Source: a virus. Taken from it: DNA of 57,159 nt. Position 1 is the stretch's first letter. The number at the start of each line of letters is the position of its first letter. The notes under the pieces were generated by a model that was not told where the DNA came from, ran no database searches, and saw nothing but the letters and a program-made list of their open reading frames with translations. The translations under genes were made by a program, and so were the position numbers. Where the stretch lies: positions 1-57,159 of the IMG/VR virus record IMGVR_UViG_3300005294_000044. One strand, 5' to 3'. Below, piece by piece: positions 41,357-48,129 of the stretch.

Positions 41357-42082
41357 TCACCGGCCCCCTTCAACTATCACTACATCGCACCGACAGCCGA
41401 TAACTTCCTCGGGTGGTCCCATTGGATCACCTGGGAACATCAGAGGGAAGTTGCCGACCACGAATGGAGCATAGAGTTCTACAGTTTGTCCATCGGCAGC
41501 GGCGTGTGTTGGACGTACCCGTCGATCACGCTCAGAGTCCCACCGCTTAAGAAGCCGGCGTCCAGAAACTCGGCTCTGCTCCAATCCAGCAGCAACGGTG
41601 CCAGCCCCATATGCTCGCGTTGTTTCCGTAACTGCAATAACTCTCGCCCGATTCGGCCATCGCTCACTATCGGTATAGGTGAGCACCCGATCGACTCGTT
41701 GAGCGACCTGCTCCACAGATCCACCACTGTTCGTGGCATCAGTTATCTCCGTAAAGATCAGGTTGTAGACCTCGGACGGGATCCGGACCAGAAGGTTCTG
41801 GGTCTGGGCCAGTTGACTCATGACGAAGGCGTGCCGGGATACTGGCGGCAGGTTGGTGGCCTCGTTCCATGCCCCCATGGAGATCTGCCCGATGACGGAC
41901 AGGATCGTGTCCACCTCATCATCCCAGTCGCCCTGGGTCTGGAAGATGTTGGCCGGGTCCGGCATCATCTTGTACCGGTTCCACGGATCCATGACCGCAT
42001 CTTTGGCCTTGCTCAGCCAGCGACGCAGGGCCCCCGACACGACCCCGAACAGGTGTTGTTCGTCGCGTTCACGGTTGGGCAT
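41357..42082 (-). CDS. MuF-like head morphogenesis protein
   Basis: 241 residues. An alpha-helical first part, then the MuF core: RARVIAVTETTRAYGAGTVAAG, VRPTHAAADGQ, and the Cys-rich end PPEEVIGCRCDVVIV. The family is needed for head assembly or DNA injection. The start overlaps the end of the portal gene by 14 bp, as usual for portal-MuF pairs. The HNH gene follows after 28 bp. Confidence 0.88.
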   Translation of the reverse strand: MPNRERDEQHLFGVVSGALRRWLSKAKDAVMDPWNRYKMMPDPANIFQTQGDWDDEVDTILSVIGQISMGAWNEATNLPPVSRHAFVMSQLAQTQNLLVRIPSEVYNLIFTEITDATNSGGSVEQVAQRVDRVLTYTDSERWPNRARVIAVTETTRAYGAGTVAAGLEQSRVSGRRLLKRWDSERDRRVRPTHAAADGQTVELYAPFVVGNFPLMFPGDPMGPPEEVIGCRCDVVIVEGGR

Positions 42083-44981
42083 CGAGGAACCCTCTGGTTC
42101 GCAGAGCCTCCCCTAGGGCGTTGGCATCATGCTCCGCGCCACTGGCCAGGGTCAGGGTGCAGTAGCTTTCCAGCACGTTGCGCAGGGCATTGGTGTCCAC
42201 GGTCATGGACAGGTTGTCGGTCAGGACCGACAGGTGATCCCACACTCCCCGCAGCAGGGTCTGGGCGTGCACCACACCCTTCACTTTGATCTTGGTGTGG
42301 AGCTGATGCGGTGGGGTATCCGGATACTGGCCCCGGGTGGTGGGATCCAACAACCGCTTCCCGGCCACCTCCAGGGCCCGCAGCGCTACCGCGTTGGCGA
42401 CCACGAAGGTGGTGATGGGGGAAGGCACCGAAGCTGACGCGGTGCGGGCCTCTACTGGGGTACTAGCGTTCTGGCCCGGTCCAGCCAGGGCATTGGCGGC
42501 GGTGGAGTTGACCGGCATCGGGGGCGGCACCGTCTCCTGGATCCCGGTGGGCGGTGCCGGCGGGGGTGCGGGGCCGGCACCGTTGCTCTGGGGTGTGACC
42601 ACCGTGTCGGCCGGCAGGATCGCCTGGGTGTAGCCGGCCACCTCCCGCAGTTTGGCGATCTGGAACAAGTTGGGATCCCTGAGCATAAGCTCGCGGGTGA
42701 AGCGCTTGAGGTCCTCTTCATCGGACGGGGCATCGGTGAGCTTGTAGTCCCCGGCGATGAGCACCGCCTCGTTGGAGACGATGCCCTTCTCTTGTAGATT
42801 CAGGGTGTCCTGAAGCCTTTGTGGACGGACGACTAGCGGGGCCGTGTCGTAGGAGAACGTGTACCGGTCCGGGTCCTTCTTGATCGCCTTCAGGGCCGGG
42901 GTCAGGTACGTCATCGACAGCGCTTCACAGATGCGCGTCATGATCGGTTCAATGTGGACTTTGACGTTCTCAGCGCCTACGTGCCAGGCGCTGTTACCGG
43001 TGTAGTAGGTGGTGCCGTTCCGTTTGGCGAACCAGGTCCCGTTGTCGGTGACCGGGCACCATACAGTGCCGGTGTATTTGACAACCTCTTGGTCATGGGT
43101 TCCAGTCAGCGACTTCATGGGCCGGACCGTGCTACGAACCCAGTTACCAACGGCATGGCCACCGTCAGACTGAATGGTAGATACCATTCGTCCGGACAGG
43201 ACTAGGGCCAACTCGTAAGCGTCCAGGGCACGAGGATTCCGTTGCCAGATGTCTAGGTTTCGGGGGTAGTGCCAACCGTCACCCTGGCACGACACATCGA
43301 TGAACAACTCCAGTTGGGCCCTGGTCAGGTTCTGGATGAAGTCCAGGGAGACGATCTTGCTAGGAGCCAGGGGGCGCAATTGATCCCCGGCCAACTTATT
43401 GAGCCGGAAGACAGTAACCGGGCCACCGTACGATGAAACGCAATCTTGAATGGCGTCCGTCCATGACGGCACGACCGACTTGCGAAGAGTCGTCGCCCTG
43501 GCTCCGAACAATCGCGTCAAGCATCCTCTGATCCGATCGACCTTGACGGGGTTCTTGGTATGCGACTGACAGATGGTGATACGACCGCTATCGCTACCCT
43601 CGGTCCAGTACCAGGCCATCAACTCAACGAAGTCGTCAAGATACTTCGGCTCAGTGGGTAGGTCTGCTGCCGGAGCAGCCGTGGGTATGGCGTGTTCGCG
43701 GAATAGTTCCTGAGTGGTAGTGAACTCACGAGCCAGGTACCTGACACCGTCTTGGTAGCGCGGTCGCAGGACCGGCCAACGATGCTCCGGAGTGGTCAGT
43801 GACGAGTGACCCTTACGCTGCATCGAGAGCATCGGTTCATCTACGACCTCAGCTCGGTAGATGTCCTTGACGGGCCCCCACTCACTGAGCCCGGTCTCGT
43901 GGTTCAAGGTCAGGACCTGATCCCCGACCTGGATCTCGCTCTCCTTCTTCCATCCATCTCGGGTGAGGATCTGGGTCTGGTCATCGACGCACCAGTGATT
44001 TGCGTCCCCGGTTCCCAGCAGAATTTCCGGCGCCATATCCATCGCTAAAGCGAAACGTCTCACTGCTTCTTGGCGAAGGTCCAGAGCCTGTCGGCTCAGC
44101 TCGCTGGCGAAGTTCACCAACTGGATCTTGCCCAGGGCGTCCAGCGGAACTTCCATGATGGTGGGGACCACTCCAGCGGCAGTGCCCTCGCCTTTCAAGG
44201 AGGCCGAGCCAGTGCGCAGCAGCTTGGTGGTCAGGCCCTCGGCACCAGTGAGCCTGCCATCTTCGTCACTGTCATCGTCCGGGAAGCTGATCTCTTGTGG
44301 GATCGGTAGAAGTCCAGCAGACACCAGGCGAGAGTCAATCTGGGCAAACACATAACGTGTGAGACGCTCGATCTCCCACAACATAGGCAAAGCCGCCCGC
44401 GTCGGAGAATCAGCCCAGATATTGCGGCGCGGGTGGGGAGTCCAGACTCGGATAACAAGGTCAGAGTTAGGGTCCAGGTATTCCTTGGAGCCGTCCGGGT
44501 AGATGTAGGCAATGTTGCCTCCCCATCGCCTCAGTTCCGAACAGGAGACGATGAACCATTTATCTGGATCATCGTCGTTCTTGGCCCCGCGTCCGACGAT
44601 GTAGAAGTCCCCCGCCACCGTCAGGTTGATCCCTGCCAATCTCAAGGCTTCAGCCTTGGAGCTGGGACCTCCGAGCACAGTGTCGGCAATGGCGGCAACC
44701 TTCGGGTCGGTGCTCTCCTGCTGGACCCGGCCGTTCTTGTCCACGTCGGCCACATAGATCCGCACCCGGGAGCAGGCTGAGCCCACCCAGTTGGCGGCGA
44801 ACCGTAGCTCTCCCACGATGTCGTAGAGGCGCCAGGCTTCGGACTGCCACTCGTCGTTGCCGAACCGGTAGGTGCGCCAACTCTGACCCTCCAGGTTGAC
44901 CCGGGCGGCCGAGGCAACCAGGCTGGAGGCTGCCTCATGGGGCGGTGGGGTGACCTGTGGGGTGCGCCGGAACCGTCCCAT
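42069..44981 (-). CDS. Portal protein, interrupted by an intein
   Basis: 970 residues including the intein at 331-663; the joined portal would be 637 residues. Portal features (phage_portal/SPP1-like): SEAWRLYDIVGELRFAANWVGSACSRVRIYVAD, AGDFYIVGRG, DSPTRAALPMLWEIERL, then RRFALAMDMAPEILLGTGDANHW, and after the intein SAWHVGAENVKVHIEP and SFPTxLL-type helical C-terminal region with a Pro-rich end. The portal dodecamer is the DNA entry pore at the head vertex. The ATG overlaps the previous stop (TGATG). Confidence 0.92.
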   Translation of the reverse strand: MGRFRRTPQVTPPPHEAASSLVASAARVNLEGQSWRTYRFGNDEWQSEAWRLYDIVGELRFAANWVGSACSRVRIYVADVDKNGRVQQESTDPKVAAIADTVLGGPSSKAEALRLAGINLTVAGDFYIVGRGAKNDDDPDKWFIVSCSELRRWGGNIAYIYPDGSKEYLDPNSDLVIRVWTPHPRRNIWADSPTRAALPMLWEIERLTRYVFAQIDSRLVSAGLLPIPQEISFPDDDSDEDGRLTGAEGLTTKLLRTGSASLKGEGTAAGVVPTIMEVPLDALGKIQLVNFASELSRQALDLRQEAVRRFALAMDMAPEILLGTGDANHWCVDDQTQILTRDGWKKESEIQVGDQVLTLNHETGLSEWGPVKDIYRAEVVDEPMLSMQRKGHSSLTTPEHRWPVLRPRYQDGVRYLAREFTTTQELFREHAIPTAAPAADLPTEPKYLDDFVELMAWYWTEGSDSGRITICQSHTKNPVKVDRIRGCLTRLFGARATTLRKSVVPSWTDAIQDCVSSYGGPVTVFRLNKLAGDQLRPLAPSKIVSLDFIQNLTRAQLELFIDVSCQGDGWHYPRNLDIWQRNPRALDAYELALVLSGRMVSTIQSDGGHAVGNWVRSTVRPMKSLTGTHDQEVVKYTGTVWCPVTDNGTWFAKRNGTTYYTGNSAWHVGAENVKVHIEPIMTRICEALSMTYLTPALKAIKKDPDRYTFSYDTAPLVVRPQRLQDTLNLQEKGIVSNEAVLIAGDYKLTDAPSDEEDLKRFTRELMLRDPNLFQIAKLREVAGYTQAILPADTVVTPQSNGAGPAPPPAPPTGIQETVPPPMPVNSTAANALAGPGQNASTPVEARTASASVPSPITTFVVANAVALRALEVAGKRLLDPTTRGQYPDTPPHQLHTKIKVKGVVHAQTLLRGVWDHLSVLTDNLSMTVDTNALRNVLESYCTLTLASGAEHDANALGEALRTRGFLDAQP
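42993..43991 (-). mobile_element. Portal intein with LAGLIDADG endonuclease
   Basis: 333 residues from Cys331 (CVDDQTQILTRDGWKK, block A) through block B (LTTPEHRWPV), two LAGLIDADG-type motifs (DDFVELMAWYWTEGS and LELFIDVSCQGDG), to block F/G (FAKRNGTTYYTGN). It excises between Trp330 and Ser664: ...GDANHW / SAWHV. The last two residues are Gly-Asn where most inteins have His-Asn; the +1 residue is Ser. Confidence 0.92.
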
Positions 44982-45317: not shown

Positions 45318-47642
45318 TCAGAGGAGTCGGCCCAGGTCGTAAAGCTCCTGGCCGAGACGGAAATCGTACTTGCCTGGATCCGACACCCGCATCCGTCGTT
45401 TCTCCCCCGCCATCAGGTATCGACAGGCATGGACCAGGGCGTCCATCCGGTCCGGGGAATCGCGGGTGGACTCGGGATCGAACAGAACCATCTGGTTCTC
45501 CAGCTCCTCGAATTCCGCGCACTGGGACAGGTCCACTACACCACAGGTGCAGACCATATGCAGGCGTCCCTGTTCGTTACGCATAGCCACCGGCTCGGCC
45601 CGGGTCTTCTTCCCGTGCTTGGAATCCACACCCTTCATGGGGGGGGTGGTGCCGGGCGGGAACAGCCTTTCCTCGTCGCGTAGTTCCACGTACGCATCCT
45701 GGAGCACTTCCTGCATCCAGCGCTTACCCAGGTTGGTTTCATAGACGAGAAGATCTGCTCGGTACTGGGCCAGGACCCGCCACATGTGAATAGCAGCCGC
45801 TCGACCAGTGCCAGGGAAGCTGTGATCTGCGAGCACGAACATTTCGTCCGCCGGGTCCCGACCCACCACCACGATCCCGGTCTCGGCCTCTTCGCCGGTG
45901 AGGTTCGGGTCCACTCCCACAACGCGGGCAACCAACTCATCGGGAACTCCTACGATCCGGTTGCGGTAGATGTCCATCCGTTTGAACAGTCCGCCCCCGG
46001 TGGCGTCAAGCATCTTGCCGTACAACTCCTGCTCACCCAGGGCGGTGCCGGCGTAGCGGTTCTTCAGCTCCCGCAGCACGTGCTGGGACAGGTTGTCAGC
46101 ATTGTCGAAGGTGGATCCACCCATGACGTGGACGGTCCCGTCACTGCGGGACAGCCATTCGATCAGGAGCTTGATCGGCTTGGGGGTGGTGGTGACGAAT
46201 GCCCGTGGGTGATCGTCGACAAGGTCGATGCGGAGCGAAGGCAAGATGCCTTCATACCAAGACTCGTATGGCTTGGGCCACTTGGCTAACTCGTCGCAGT
46301 TGTGGATCTTGATACGACCTGAACCAGCGAAGAACTCGGGAACATTCTCCACGACCAGGTCAAAGACATCAGCGGGGTTGATCTCCCGCTCTACGTGCAG
46401 CACGACCACTGGCACCGTATCTACGGGCTGATTCTCGTCGACAGTCGTCTGAACAGCGTTTGGCTCGCATCCCGGTACTGAGGAAGGTACTACCGCACAT
46501 GTCGCAGATAACTGGACGCGGTTCCCGTCGTTGCCAGTAGGCCCGGAGCCGGTCGCGAACCGCCTCTGGTGTCTGGTGTCTCGTCCACGCATCATCGTCT
46601 CGTTGCAGGGCAGTAAGTCTGCGATGGTCTGAGATGGTGAGAAGTTCAAGGTTCGATAGGGAGTTGTTACTTCGGCTTCGATCGATGTGATGGATCTCGT
46701 AGCCCTCGGGGATGACTCCATGGACGCTGATCCAGACGGCTCGATGCAGGAGCATCCCGTCTCGGTTGTAGTAGTACCTGGCCCGCTTGTTGTAGAACCA
46801 GGACTCTCCTCCCCACTCGAAGAAGGCGGGGGCTGAGGATGGCACAGGATCTGCGTATCCATTTTGGATGACCATGACGATAAGGTATCACCAATATGGA
46901 CCTGATCTGCTCTTACCCAAGATCCATTAGCCCATATTCGGTGATCGCCGGTGACGGCAACGGAACCTTGCGAGGTGTGTATGCGGAGTACTTGGGCACC
47001 CTTGCCGGACAACCCGCTTCGAAGCACCCGCCGCCATCCCTGAGTGGTCGCCACCAAATCTCCGGGCTGAACGTTTTCTATGCTTACTGGGCCCTTGAGG
47101 GTGACGACAGGTTCGCCCTCAGCCACGCACCAACAGCCCGAGGCGTTGTATCCACGCCCCACATCCTCGTCATCCGCACCTTCCGCGTAGACCTTCACCC
47201 CATCCGGGAACAGGACCATGGGACGGGGGGACTGCTTGTAGCGGTGGGGCATCTTGCGCCGGTCCAGAACGGAGAGCATGCCAGCCGGCCCGTCCATACA
47301 GATGGTGCGGGTATCGGCCAGAGTCTCCCCGATGACCAACCACTCGGTGGGGCGCCCAGCTCGGTCGACCGGGTGCTTCTGGATCTGGTCAGTGAGCCAC
47401 TCCGAACCGGCCCGACTCTTCCCCCAACCTCTGCCGGCAAGAGCCAGGGCGACCAGCCAGTCCCCAGGTGGGGGGATCTGCTCCGGTCGGGCGACCCACC
47501 ACCACTCTCCCCGGGCCATCTCCTCCAGGGCCAGGTCGGACTGTTCCGACAGCCACTGTTCCCGGACATCTGTCGGAAGTCGGGAAACTCGTTTGAGAAG
47601 GGACAGGCCCACGAGATGATCATAAACGGCCTGTAGTATCAA
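45318..47642 (-). CDS. Terminase large subunit, interrupted by an intein
   Basis: As read from the TTG at 47642 (ATGs at 47708 and 47810 are also in frame but overlap the divergent gene, so the true start is uncertain; GTG at 47612 is another choice). ATPase part: GDWLVALALAGRGWGKSRAGSEW (Walker A), intein in the Walker B region, W-C-D-E-L-A-K-W after splicing, TTTPKPIKLLIEW (motif III), then the nuclease part VVGVDPNLTGEEAETGIVVVGRD and RDSPDRMDALVHACRYL. It is of the COG5323/gene-transfer-agent group. The motor cuts and packs phage DNA. Confidence 0.92.
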   Translation of the reverse strand: MILQAVYDHLVGLSLLKRVSRLPTDVREQWLSEQSDLALEEMARGEWWWVARPEQIPPPGDWLVALALAGRGWGKSRAGSEWLTDQIQKHPVDRAGRPTEWLVIGETLADTRTICMDGPAGMLSVLDRRKMPHRYKQSPRPMVLFPDGVKVYAEGADDEDVGRGYNASGCWCVAEGEPVVTLKGPVSIENVQPGDLVATTQGWRRVLRSGLSGKGAQVLRIHTSQGSVAVTGDHRIWANGSWVRADQVHIGDTLSSWSSKMDTQILCHPQPPPSSSGEESPGSTTSGPGTTTTETGCSCIEPSGSASMESSPRATRSITSIEAEVTTPYRTLNFSPSQTIADLLPCNETMMRGRDTRHQRRFATGSGPTGNDGNRVQLSATCAVVPSSVPGCEPNAVQTTVDENQPVDTVPVVVLHVEREINPADVFDLVVENVPEFFAGSGRIKIHNCDELAKWPKPYESWYEGILPSLRIDLVDDHPRAFVTTTPKPIKLLIEWLSRSDGTVHVMGGSTFDNADNLSQHVLRELKNRYAGTALGEQELYGKMLDATGGGLFKRMDIYRNRIVGVPDELVARVVGVDPNLTGEEAETGIVVVGRDPADEMFVLADHSFPGTGRAAAIHMWRVLAQYRADLLVYETNLGKRWMQEVLQDAYVELRDEERLFPPGTTPPMKGVDSKHGKKTRAEPVAMRNEQGRLHMVCTCGVVDLSQCAEFEELENQMVLFDPESTRDSPDRMDALVHACRYLMAGEKRRMRVSDPGKYDFRLGQELYDLGRLL
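46299..47129 (-). mobile_element. Terminase intein (splicing domain with out-of-frame HNH gene inside)
   Basis: 277 residues from Cys (block A CVAEGEPVVTLKGPVSIENV), block B SVAVTGDHRIWANGSW, to block F/G VFDLVVENVPEFFAGSGRIKIHN followed by Cys. It splits the conserved W-C-D-E-L of the ATPase between Trp and Cys. The residues between ~313 and ~467 of the full reading are Ser/Thr/Pro-rich and carry no endonuclease motif; on the same strand, another frame of that segment encodes a full HNH protein. Confidence 0.9.
46369..46875 (-). CDS. HNH endonuclease nested out of frame inside the terminase intein
   Basis: 168 residues in a frame different from that of the terminase (start positions differ by one, modulo three). 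Features: YYYNRDGMLLHRAVWISVHG, EGYEIHHIDRSRSNNSLSNL (the HNH core H-H-x-D...N...N-L) and a C-terminal zinc pair ICDMCGSTFLSTGMRAKRCSDDC. Its own ATG and stop lie within the intein, and it overlaps the last intein splicing block by ~20 codons. The ribosome-binding site is weak (GGTGAT about 12 nt upstream). A homing nuclease that mobilises the intein is the likely role; the arrangement is unusual. Confidence 0.88.
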   Translation of the reverse strand: MVIQNGYADPVPSSAPAFFEWGGESWFYNKRARYYYNRDGMLLHRAVWISVHGVIPEGYEIHHIDRSRSNNSLSNLELLTISDHRRLTALQRDDDAWTRHQTPEAVRDRLRAYWQRREPRPVICDMCGSTFLSTGMRAKRCSDDCRRESARRYGASGRAARRAGDQPR

Positions 47643-47648
47643 AGGACC

Positions 47649-47676
47649 ACCCGGCGTCTTTGGCGCCGGGCTTCTT
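47649..47676. other. Hairpin between divergent terminase and dual-HTH genes
   Basis: CCCGGCG (47650-47656) pairs with CGCCGGG (47664-47670), with CTTCTTTT following on the plus strand. It lies in the 64-bp gap between divergent starts, where a terminator has no upstream gene to end, so it may be a regulatory fold in the leader or a remnant. Confidence 0.5.
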
Positions 47677-47706
47677 TTGTCGTATCCAGGGGGTACCCTG
47701 ATCAAC

Positions 47707-48129
47707 ATGACTTCCGAAATGATTGAACACGTTCTTCTTGGCCGTGAAGTGGTAGAAGACGGCCGTCTCAAGCAGCTTCGCGAGCAGCTCGGATTTTCGG
47801 TGAACATCATGTCCGAGGTGCTCTACATGAATGCTGTCAGCTACCGACGTTGGGAATCTGGCACTGGTGCGGCCCTTCGTCCCTCTATTGCCGAGCGACT
47901 CGGTCGGTTCTATATCCAGGCCAATAAGGCGCTGGAGTTGCTGAGCGAACAGGGCCTGGACCTAGGGGGACTAATTCCGTTTCATCTGGTCGCCGGGGCC
48001 GCTGGGCTTCCCCATGAAATCCTGCTCCAGCACTGTCGCCAGGGTCGGGTCAACGGAGTGGACCTGGGCATCCTGGGGATGTGGCTTCGTCGCAGTGATC
48101 TGGACAAGTTCATGGCGGATGTGCGATGA
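47707..48129 (+). CDS. Dual helix-turn-helix DNA-binding protein
   Basis: 140 residues from the ATG at 47707 (only 7 nt after TACCCT at 47694, which could be a -10 for a near-leaderless message). The N-terminal half is XRE-like (LKQLREQLGFSVNIMSEVLYMNAVSYRRWESG), the C-terminal half resembles an excisionase/MerR-type HTH (HLVAGAAGLPHEILLQHCRQGRVNGVDLG... WLRRSDLDKFM). It probably regulates transcription of the replication or late genes from the divergent region. The stop overlaps the nuclease start. Confidence 0.75.
   Translation: MTSEMIEHVLLGREVVEDGRLKQLREQLGFSVNIMSEVLYMNAVSYRRWESGTGAALRPSIAERLGRFYIQANKALELLSEQGLDLGGLIPFHLVAGAAGLPHEILLQHCRQGRVNGVDLGILGMWLRRSDLDKFMADVR

Follow-up and report, generated by a model that had tools for sequence, protein, structure and literature searches.

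A terminase intein with an out-of-frame HNH endonuclease gene in an uncultivated virus and its relatives

A terminase gene with a second gene inside its intein

We analysed a 57,159-nucleotide stretch of viral DNA (IMG/VR record IMGVR_UViG_3300005294_000044, positions 1 to 57,159), referred to here as the window. The features of interest lie on the minus strand and are listed in Table 1. The terminase large subunit precursor ORF matches Terminase_6N (E=3.3e-13). None of its 830 codons is a stop, and the frame stays open across an in-frame insert that occupies terminase residues 228-504. Related terminases without the insert, 66-85% identical to the window C-extein, read GRGYNASGAW directly followed by (C/L/V)DE; this is the empty site. 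Hence, the insertion point can be placed exactly, just before the Walker B acidic pair.

Table 1. Features of the terminase locus in the window
Feature	Position	Strand	Basis
Terminase large subunit precursor ORF (N-extein, intein and C-extein), 830 aa	45318..47810	(-)	Terminase_6N, PHROG 38/2/979; uninterrupted relatives
N-extein, ATPase part; ends GRGYNASGCW right before the Walker B acidic pair	47130..47810	(-)	Alignment to insert-free relatives
Intein, 277 aa; Cys1 to Asn277, then Cys+1	46299..47129	(-)	Pfam, invariant residues in 36 homologues, profile, fold
N-terminal Hint half, residues 1-88; pLDDT about 97	46866..47129	(-)	AlphaFold2 model
TGA, as TGn of an extended -10, preceding TACCTT	46888-46890	(-)	Sequence
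TACCTT, a TANNNT (-10-like) box 6 nt before the HNH ATG; overlaps the intein Gly-Asp codons	46882..46887	(-)	Candidate leaderless promoter
HNH endonuclease CDS, ATG to TGA, 168 aa; -1 frame relative to intein	46369..46875	(-)	ORF, Pfam, homologues, AlphaFold2
HNH_3 motif (HH...N...H), HNH protein residues 42-86	46618..46752	(-)	Pfam; invariant residues
Cys4 zinc-finger-like part of HNH protein	46441..46506	(-)	Conserved cysteines
Linker of intein frame, residues 89-234; Ser/Thr/Pro-rich, predicted disordered; shares DNA with most of the HNH gene	46428..46865	(-)	AlphaFold2 model
C-terminal Hint half, residues 235-277; pLDDT about 97	46299..46427	(-)	AlphaFold2 model
C-extein, starts CDELAKW	45318..46298	(-)	Uninterrupted relatives 66-85% identical

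By sequence and predicted fold the insert is an intein, which would excise itself from the terminase. It ends in His-Asn, with Cys at +1. C1, T60 and H63 (the block B TxxH motif) and N277, the splicing residues expected of a class 1 Hint domain, are invariant in 36 homologues. The Pfam matches of the window intein, to Intein_splicing (E=9e-5) and Hint_2 (E=0.004), are both below their cut-offs. The assignment is firmer than this because a profile of the relatives' inteins matches a solved intein, the DnaX mini-intein 7cfv (E=4e-18), and because of the predicted fold. The AlphaFold2 model, built from an alignment of the 36 inteins, has a Hint fold with 7cfv as the top Foldseek match (TMt 0.81). 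Its splicing parts comprise 88+43 residues. The 146 residues between them are modelled with pLDDT of about 50 and no secondary structure. Mini-inteins with no HNH gene occupy the same sites as HNH-bearing ones (L036 and L044). That of L036, at the same terminase site, is 134 aa long.

The HNH ORF is offset from the intein frame by +2 (equivalent to -1) on the same strand. Its stop codon falls 70 nt ahead of the intein end, within the C-terminal splicing block, and its 3' end overlaps the C-terminal Hint half. The encoded protein matches HNH_3 (PF13392, E=1.2e-15) and PHROG 15471 (E=1e-22), and has both an HNH motif and a Cys4 zinc site. Among 39 homologues, H62, H63, N75 and H84 are invariant, as are the zinc cysteines C124, C127 and C141; C145 is nearly so. 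With these homologues, AlphaFold2 predicts an ordered fold (mean pLDDT 86). The best solved relative, both by profile and by fold, is I-HmuI (1u3e). Both matches are weak, as is Foldseek and PDB support outside the motif. According to the two models, one stretch of DNA would specify two products: in the intein frame a Hint fold whose linker is disordered, and in the other frame an ordered HNH protein. The HNH protein is probably a homing endonuclease that would spread the insert.

A preliminary description of this DNA had proposed an unbroken terminase frame through a 277-residue intein, with a complete HNH ORF on the same strand. Both are present, and the HNH coordinates, with their own ATG and stop and the overlap with the last splicing block, are exact. 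It had also described the middle of the intein frame as Ser/Thr/Pro-rich, and the splicing parts as the size of a mini-intein. The compositional claim applies to the 146 residues of the linker, and the size agrees with that of the HNH-less relative. Profile searches of each frame and comparison with terminases lacking the HNH gene, both suggested there, yielded the matches and the clean empty site given above.

The adjoining portal gene (42069-44981, minus strand) contains an intein-like insert of its own, which begins CVDDQTQILT and ends YYTGN, followed by S. This gene matches PHROG 776, with the match broken at residue 331. Read by eye, the insert has a possible in-frame LAGLIDADG-type nuclease. 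Hence, inteins of two different kinds may be present in the neighbouring portal and terminase genes, both of which serve packaging.

Recurrence in other genomes

Further loci were found by database scans with the HNH proteins and the intein. Sorting relied on HMMs of the N-terminal Hint half, the C-terminal Hint half and the HNH protein. We required an unbroken terminase ORF, both intein halves and an HNH gene in another frame within. At least 88 distinct loci, including the window, have this arrangement. The counts given here do not measure prevalence because one scan kept the best 80 of at least 567 relatives, and the HNH queries came from overprinted members. The preliminary description had called an out-of-frame nuclease unusual. 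The layout is real but belongs to a recurrent class and is no lone oddity; the window on its own is statistically weak.

Phages, both cultured and uncultured, contributed loci, as did genome records of bacteria and archaea. Named phages are Acinetobacter phage Highwayman, Tetrasphaera phage TJE1 and Rhodobacteraceae phage LS06-2018-MD07. A human faecal phage contig also has the arrangement. Bacterial isolates are Rhizobium lusitanum and Beijerinckia mobilis; in the latter the intein shares the Walker B site of the window. Metagenome-assembled genomes represent Bacteroidota, Chloroflexota, Nitrospirota, Patescibacteria and Thermoplasmatota. The GC content of the loci ranges from 0.32 to 0.71. 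The intein occupies several positions in the terminase, of which the nuclease domain is the most common and Walker B is rarer. The GenBank entries for Highwayman, TJE1 and MD07 (L045, L050 and L051) annotate only the long terminase and omit the hidden HNH gene.

The HNH stop codon overlaps the C-terminal block in 86 of the 88 loci. The offset is also constant, at +2 (equivalent to -1) in 86 loci including the window and +1 in two (L160 and L163). We considered whether L160 and L163 were classifier errors. This was rejected; the sequences, when read, contain a real intein and HNH gene with the other offset. Among the matches listed, no locus with the same HNH family has the HNH gene in frame in a terminase intein. 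A plasmid search found no HNH relative.

Other arrangements of the same parts were also found. In at least 16 distinct loci the intein is split around the HNH gene. For example, in Lactobacillus phage CL2 (L055, 506-2774) the annotated terminase ends inside the N-intein and the HNH gene is next. Downstream are an unannotated C-intein and the terminase C-terminus; this is apparently a split-intein (fractured) terminase. L119, L120, L124, L136, L181, L184 and L191 resemble it. Free-standing HNH relatives adjoin terminase genes. One, in Brevundimonas phage Poludnitsa (L052, 2378-2953), is unannotated and lies between the terminase and portal genes. In Pectobacterium phage Amona (L046, 1952-5062), the helicase gene is broken in two, with N-intein and C-intein sequences at the ends of the two ORFs and a LAGLIDADG gene that lies between and overlaps them. 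The overprinted, split and free-standing forms are intermingled in a tree built from 124 HNH proteins. This tree implies at least 15 switches between the overprinted arrangement and the others; with its weak resolution it does not fix the direction or number of origins.

The nearest HNH relative of the window among the matches listed, with 53% identity, is at L138 (1238-3808). Its intein is inserted past the Walker B DE, a few residues beyond the window site. Hence, related elements occupy neighbouring sites. The TerL inserts of Microbacterium phages A3Wally, Pumpernickel and Cece (L038, L039 and L040) were considered as relatives and rejected. These intein-like inserts, which begin EGEALALDT and end KTHN before S, are nearer the terminase N-terminus. 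They represent another intein, without a long HNH frame.

Selection, chance and start signals

Differences in the overlap between related loci, summed by HNH codon position, number 1721, 1464 and 3226 for positions 1, 2 and 3, respectively. This third-position excess is the pattern of purifying selection on the HNH protein. The intein-frame linker diverges faster than the HNH protein; for example, L054 and L122 are 48% identical in the former and 74% in the latter. Hence, the linker need only stay open. Codon-position analysis had been suggested in the preliminary description, which also named stops in the HNH frame of relatives as evidence against overprinting. The relatives keep this frame open, with conserved catalytic residues. 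The element may also move; in L054 and L183 the intein and HNH gene are 64-67% identical and the N-exteins 34% identical, a mosaic that suggests transfer as a unit.

The HNH gene might instead be a decaying, unexpressed passenger, and the intein a mini-intein with filler. This would suit the weak expression signals of the window copy described below. It does not explain why the HNH frame is intact in 88 loci with invariant catalytic and zinc residues, or why changes concentrate at HNH third positions. We consider it improbable.

We then asked how often the intein frame would be open by chance, by permuting synonymous codons within each HNH protein of the 88 loci. The expectation is 204 stops, with about 10 loci open; the observed number of stops is 0. 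Because an open frame is a condition for inclusion in the class, the 88 open loci are best set against the 16 split loci that also have both halves, and since loci are related, per-locus probabilities are not fully independent and summed probabilities are inflated. The evidence that the intein frame is open beyond chance across the 88 distinct loci is overwhelming. For the window alone it is weak, with a probability of 0.01-0.12 that the intein frame would be open given the HNH protein. In the third frame every locus has stops, 16.3 on average. The same offset recurs in 86 of 88 loci because that frame receives few stops from the HNH gene itself. L160 and L163 use the stop-rich frame, with 12 and 7 expected stops, yet are open.

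These data bear on whether the terminase frame is open by chance, or the insert does not splice, being retained or marking a dead gene, as proposed for the non-intein ShiLan insert. That insert has an open frame and no splicing motifs (PMC11855218), and a second open frame is not unusual in high-GC copies like the window, as the probability above indicates. However, overprinted copies of low GC content are equally free of stops, the catalytic residues of the intein are invariant and a Hint fold is predicted at pLDDT 97. Furthermore, the insert is located at essential terminase motifs. We consider a chance open frame or an insert that does not splice slightly less probable still than a passenger gene.

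If translated separately, the HNH gene needs a start. A candidate start codon is present in 86 of the 88 loci, and the one chosen is ATG in 75. The overprinted frames of L131 and L182 have no ATG, GTG or TTG near the expected HNH start. Pairing with a Shine-Dalgarno (SD) sequence upstream of the HNH starts averages -5.1 kcal/mol, compared with -3.0 kcal/mol for control starts in the same off-frame of exteins (P=4e-10). SD sites, exemplified by AAAGGAGATATTTCATG and GGAGGGAATCACATG, occur in about half of the loci.

Loci with a weak SD have a different signal. A -10-like box ends exactly 6 nt before the start, with a mean score of +2.5 versus -5.8 in controls (P=1.7e-15). By the same scoring, strong-SD loci show no -10-like box signal at the 6-nt spacing. 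In the weak-SD half, TANNNT at exactly 6 nt was observed 23 times, against 6.5 expected when synonymous codons were resampled and the intein protein held fixed (P=4.5e-11). The published signal of bacterial leaderless genes is a TANNNT whose first T lies about 12 bp upstream of the start codon (PMC3160421). A TANNNT that ends 6 nt before the start has its first T 12 bp upstream, and hence is at the published position. In many copies, the Gly-Asp codons that close the N-terminal Hint half also provide the TG of an extended -10. The window carries TGATACCTT, 6 nt and then ATG, with the first T at -12; in this copy alone the signal is weak (P=0.17). Start signals for the HNH gene are embedded in the intein codons, as an SD in some relatives and a leaderless -10 box in others. 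The window probably has the latter.

Alternatively, the HNH protein could be made solely by -1 frameshifting, as a fusion to the N-terminal Hint half without its own start. The -1 offset in 86 of 88 loci is what this would predict, although stop statistics already explain that bias (the third frame averages 16 stops), and L160 and L163 use the other frame. In the sole possible frameshift window, slippery heptamers occur in 3 of 86 loci, equal to background (control 2.9%). Conversely, start codons are present in 86 of 88 loci, and SD or TANNNT signals are enriched beyond what the intein protein requires. We regard a frameshift product as being just as doubtful as an insert that does not splice. 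Finally, the window is a single uncultivated contig and conventional in-frame HNH inteins exist (phage CL131, PMC6293099), but a pair of indels that mimics overprinting of an HNH gene truly in frame has a negligible probability: the same -1 layout is present in independent assemblies, including cultured phages Highwayman and TJE1 and isolates of B. mobilis and R. lusitanum, in-frame examples number 0 among the matches listed, and an error in one contig is excluded as the cause because the HNH frame is likewise unbroken in relatives, where its catalytic residues are conserved.

Proposed mechanism and comparison with known systems

The best interpretation of our data, to which we assign a probability of roughly 0.85, is a splicing terminase intein that carries an overprinted homing gene translated independently. 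An intein with splicing parts of mini-intein size would hold a complete -1-frame HNH gene where an in-frame endonuclease domain normally sits. In the terminase frame, the HNH DNA would be translated into some 146 residues of disordered linker, flanked by Hint halves that would pair up, fold and splice themselves out of the terminase. Separately, ribosomes would initiate at the HNH gene's own ATG, using signals within the intein codons. In some relatives this would be an SD; in others, and probably in the window too, a leaderless transcript from the -10 box. The HNH protein would then cut intein-less terminase genes, and repair would copy in the whole element.

A broader proposal seems to us evenly poised. 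Here, a widespread class of terminase inteins would carry its homing nuclease by overprinting, in the frame that needs the fewest stop-avoiding codons. Codons within a conserved block of the intein would double as a promoter or ribosome-binding site. The nuclease could then be made independently of the late terminase, and perhaps earlier.

Overprinting would be a third way for an intein to carry a homing gene, beside in-frame fusion and split genes. The loci, at least 88, form a large natural set of gene overlaps that require a folded product from one frame and only an absence of stops from the other. This makes it possible to measure what overprinting costs and how it originates. The nuclease escapes gene callers, which give one long terminase, as in the GenBank records noted above. 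HNH-less, overprinted, split and free-standing forms coexist and provide a testable series for the invasion of inteins by homing genes and for the origin of split inteins.

Out-of-frame HNH insertions in phage DNA methylases, the ShiLan domain and the Pacc40 insertion, were described by Arsenault et al. 2025 (PMC11855218). As in those cases, the window insert hides an HNH gene in another frame while the host frame stays open. The ShiLan and Pacc40 inserts have no splicing motifs, and the authors found no evidence for an intein or intron (PMC11855218). Unlike them, the window insert has both Hint halves, and the element is found in terminases, at several sites and with positional evidence for SD or leaderless starts. 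For ShiLan, no SD was seen and leaderless initiation was suggested (PMC11855218). The start signals within the intein codons account for how a nuclease gene in a second frame could be expressed; for ShiLan this had been left unanswered.

The dCTP deaminase of phage CL131 contains an in-frame HNH intein for which splicing was demonstrated (PMC6293099). Similarly, the window has an HNH_3 nuclease between Hint halves inside a phage enzyme, and is predicted to splice. The CL131 nuclease is in frame, within one polypeptide, whereas the window HNH gene is out of frame with its own putative start. Neither the window nor any other overprinted locus has the endonuclease in the frame of the splicing domain.

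Fractured genes, as reportedly set out by Dassa et al. in 2009, have an endonuclease gene that stands on its own between the two parts of a split intein. The window likewise has an endonuclease gene between N- and C-intein, and split relatives exist (L055 of phage CL2, L119, L124 and others). Unlike in fractured genes, the window host frame does not end between the intein halves but is open throughout the nuclease gene; splicing would hence be in cis. The window element lacks the defining feature of in-frame HNH inteins, of ShiLan-type inserts and of split inteins alike. Within the searchable part of the open-access literature, we found the ShiLan paper but no report of an out-of-frame HNH gene inside a splicing intein.

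Kelley et al. 2016 (PMC5050341) describe mycobacteriophage inteins that lie at functional motifs of the terminase large subunit (TerL), and the window intein is similarly placed. The window intein has an HNH gene in another frame, which passages of that paper on the mycobacteriophage inteins do not mention. I-HmuI (1u3e) is the closest solved homing HNH nuclease to the window protein, if weakly so by profile and fold. It resides in a self-splicing group I RNA intron, whereas the window HNH gene resides in an intein.
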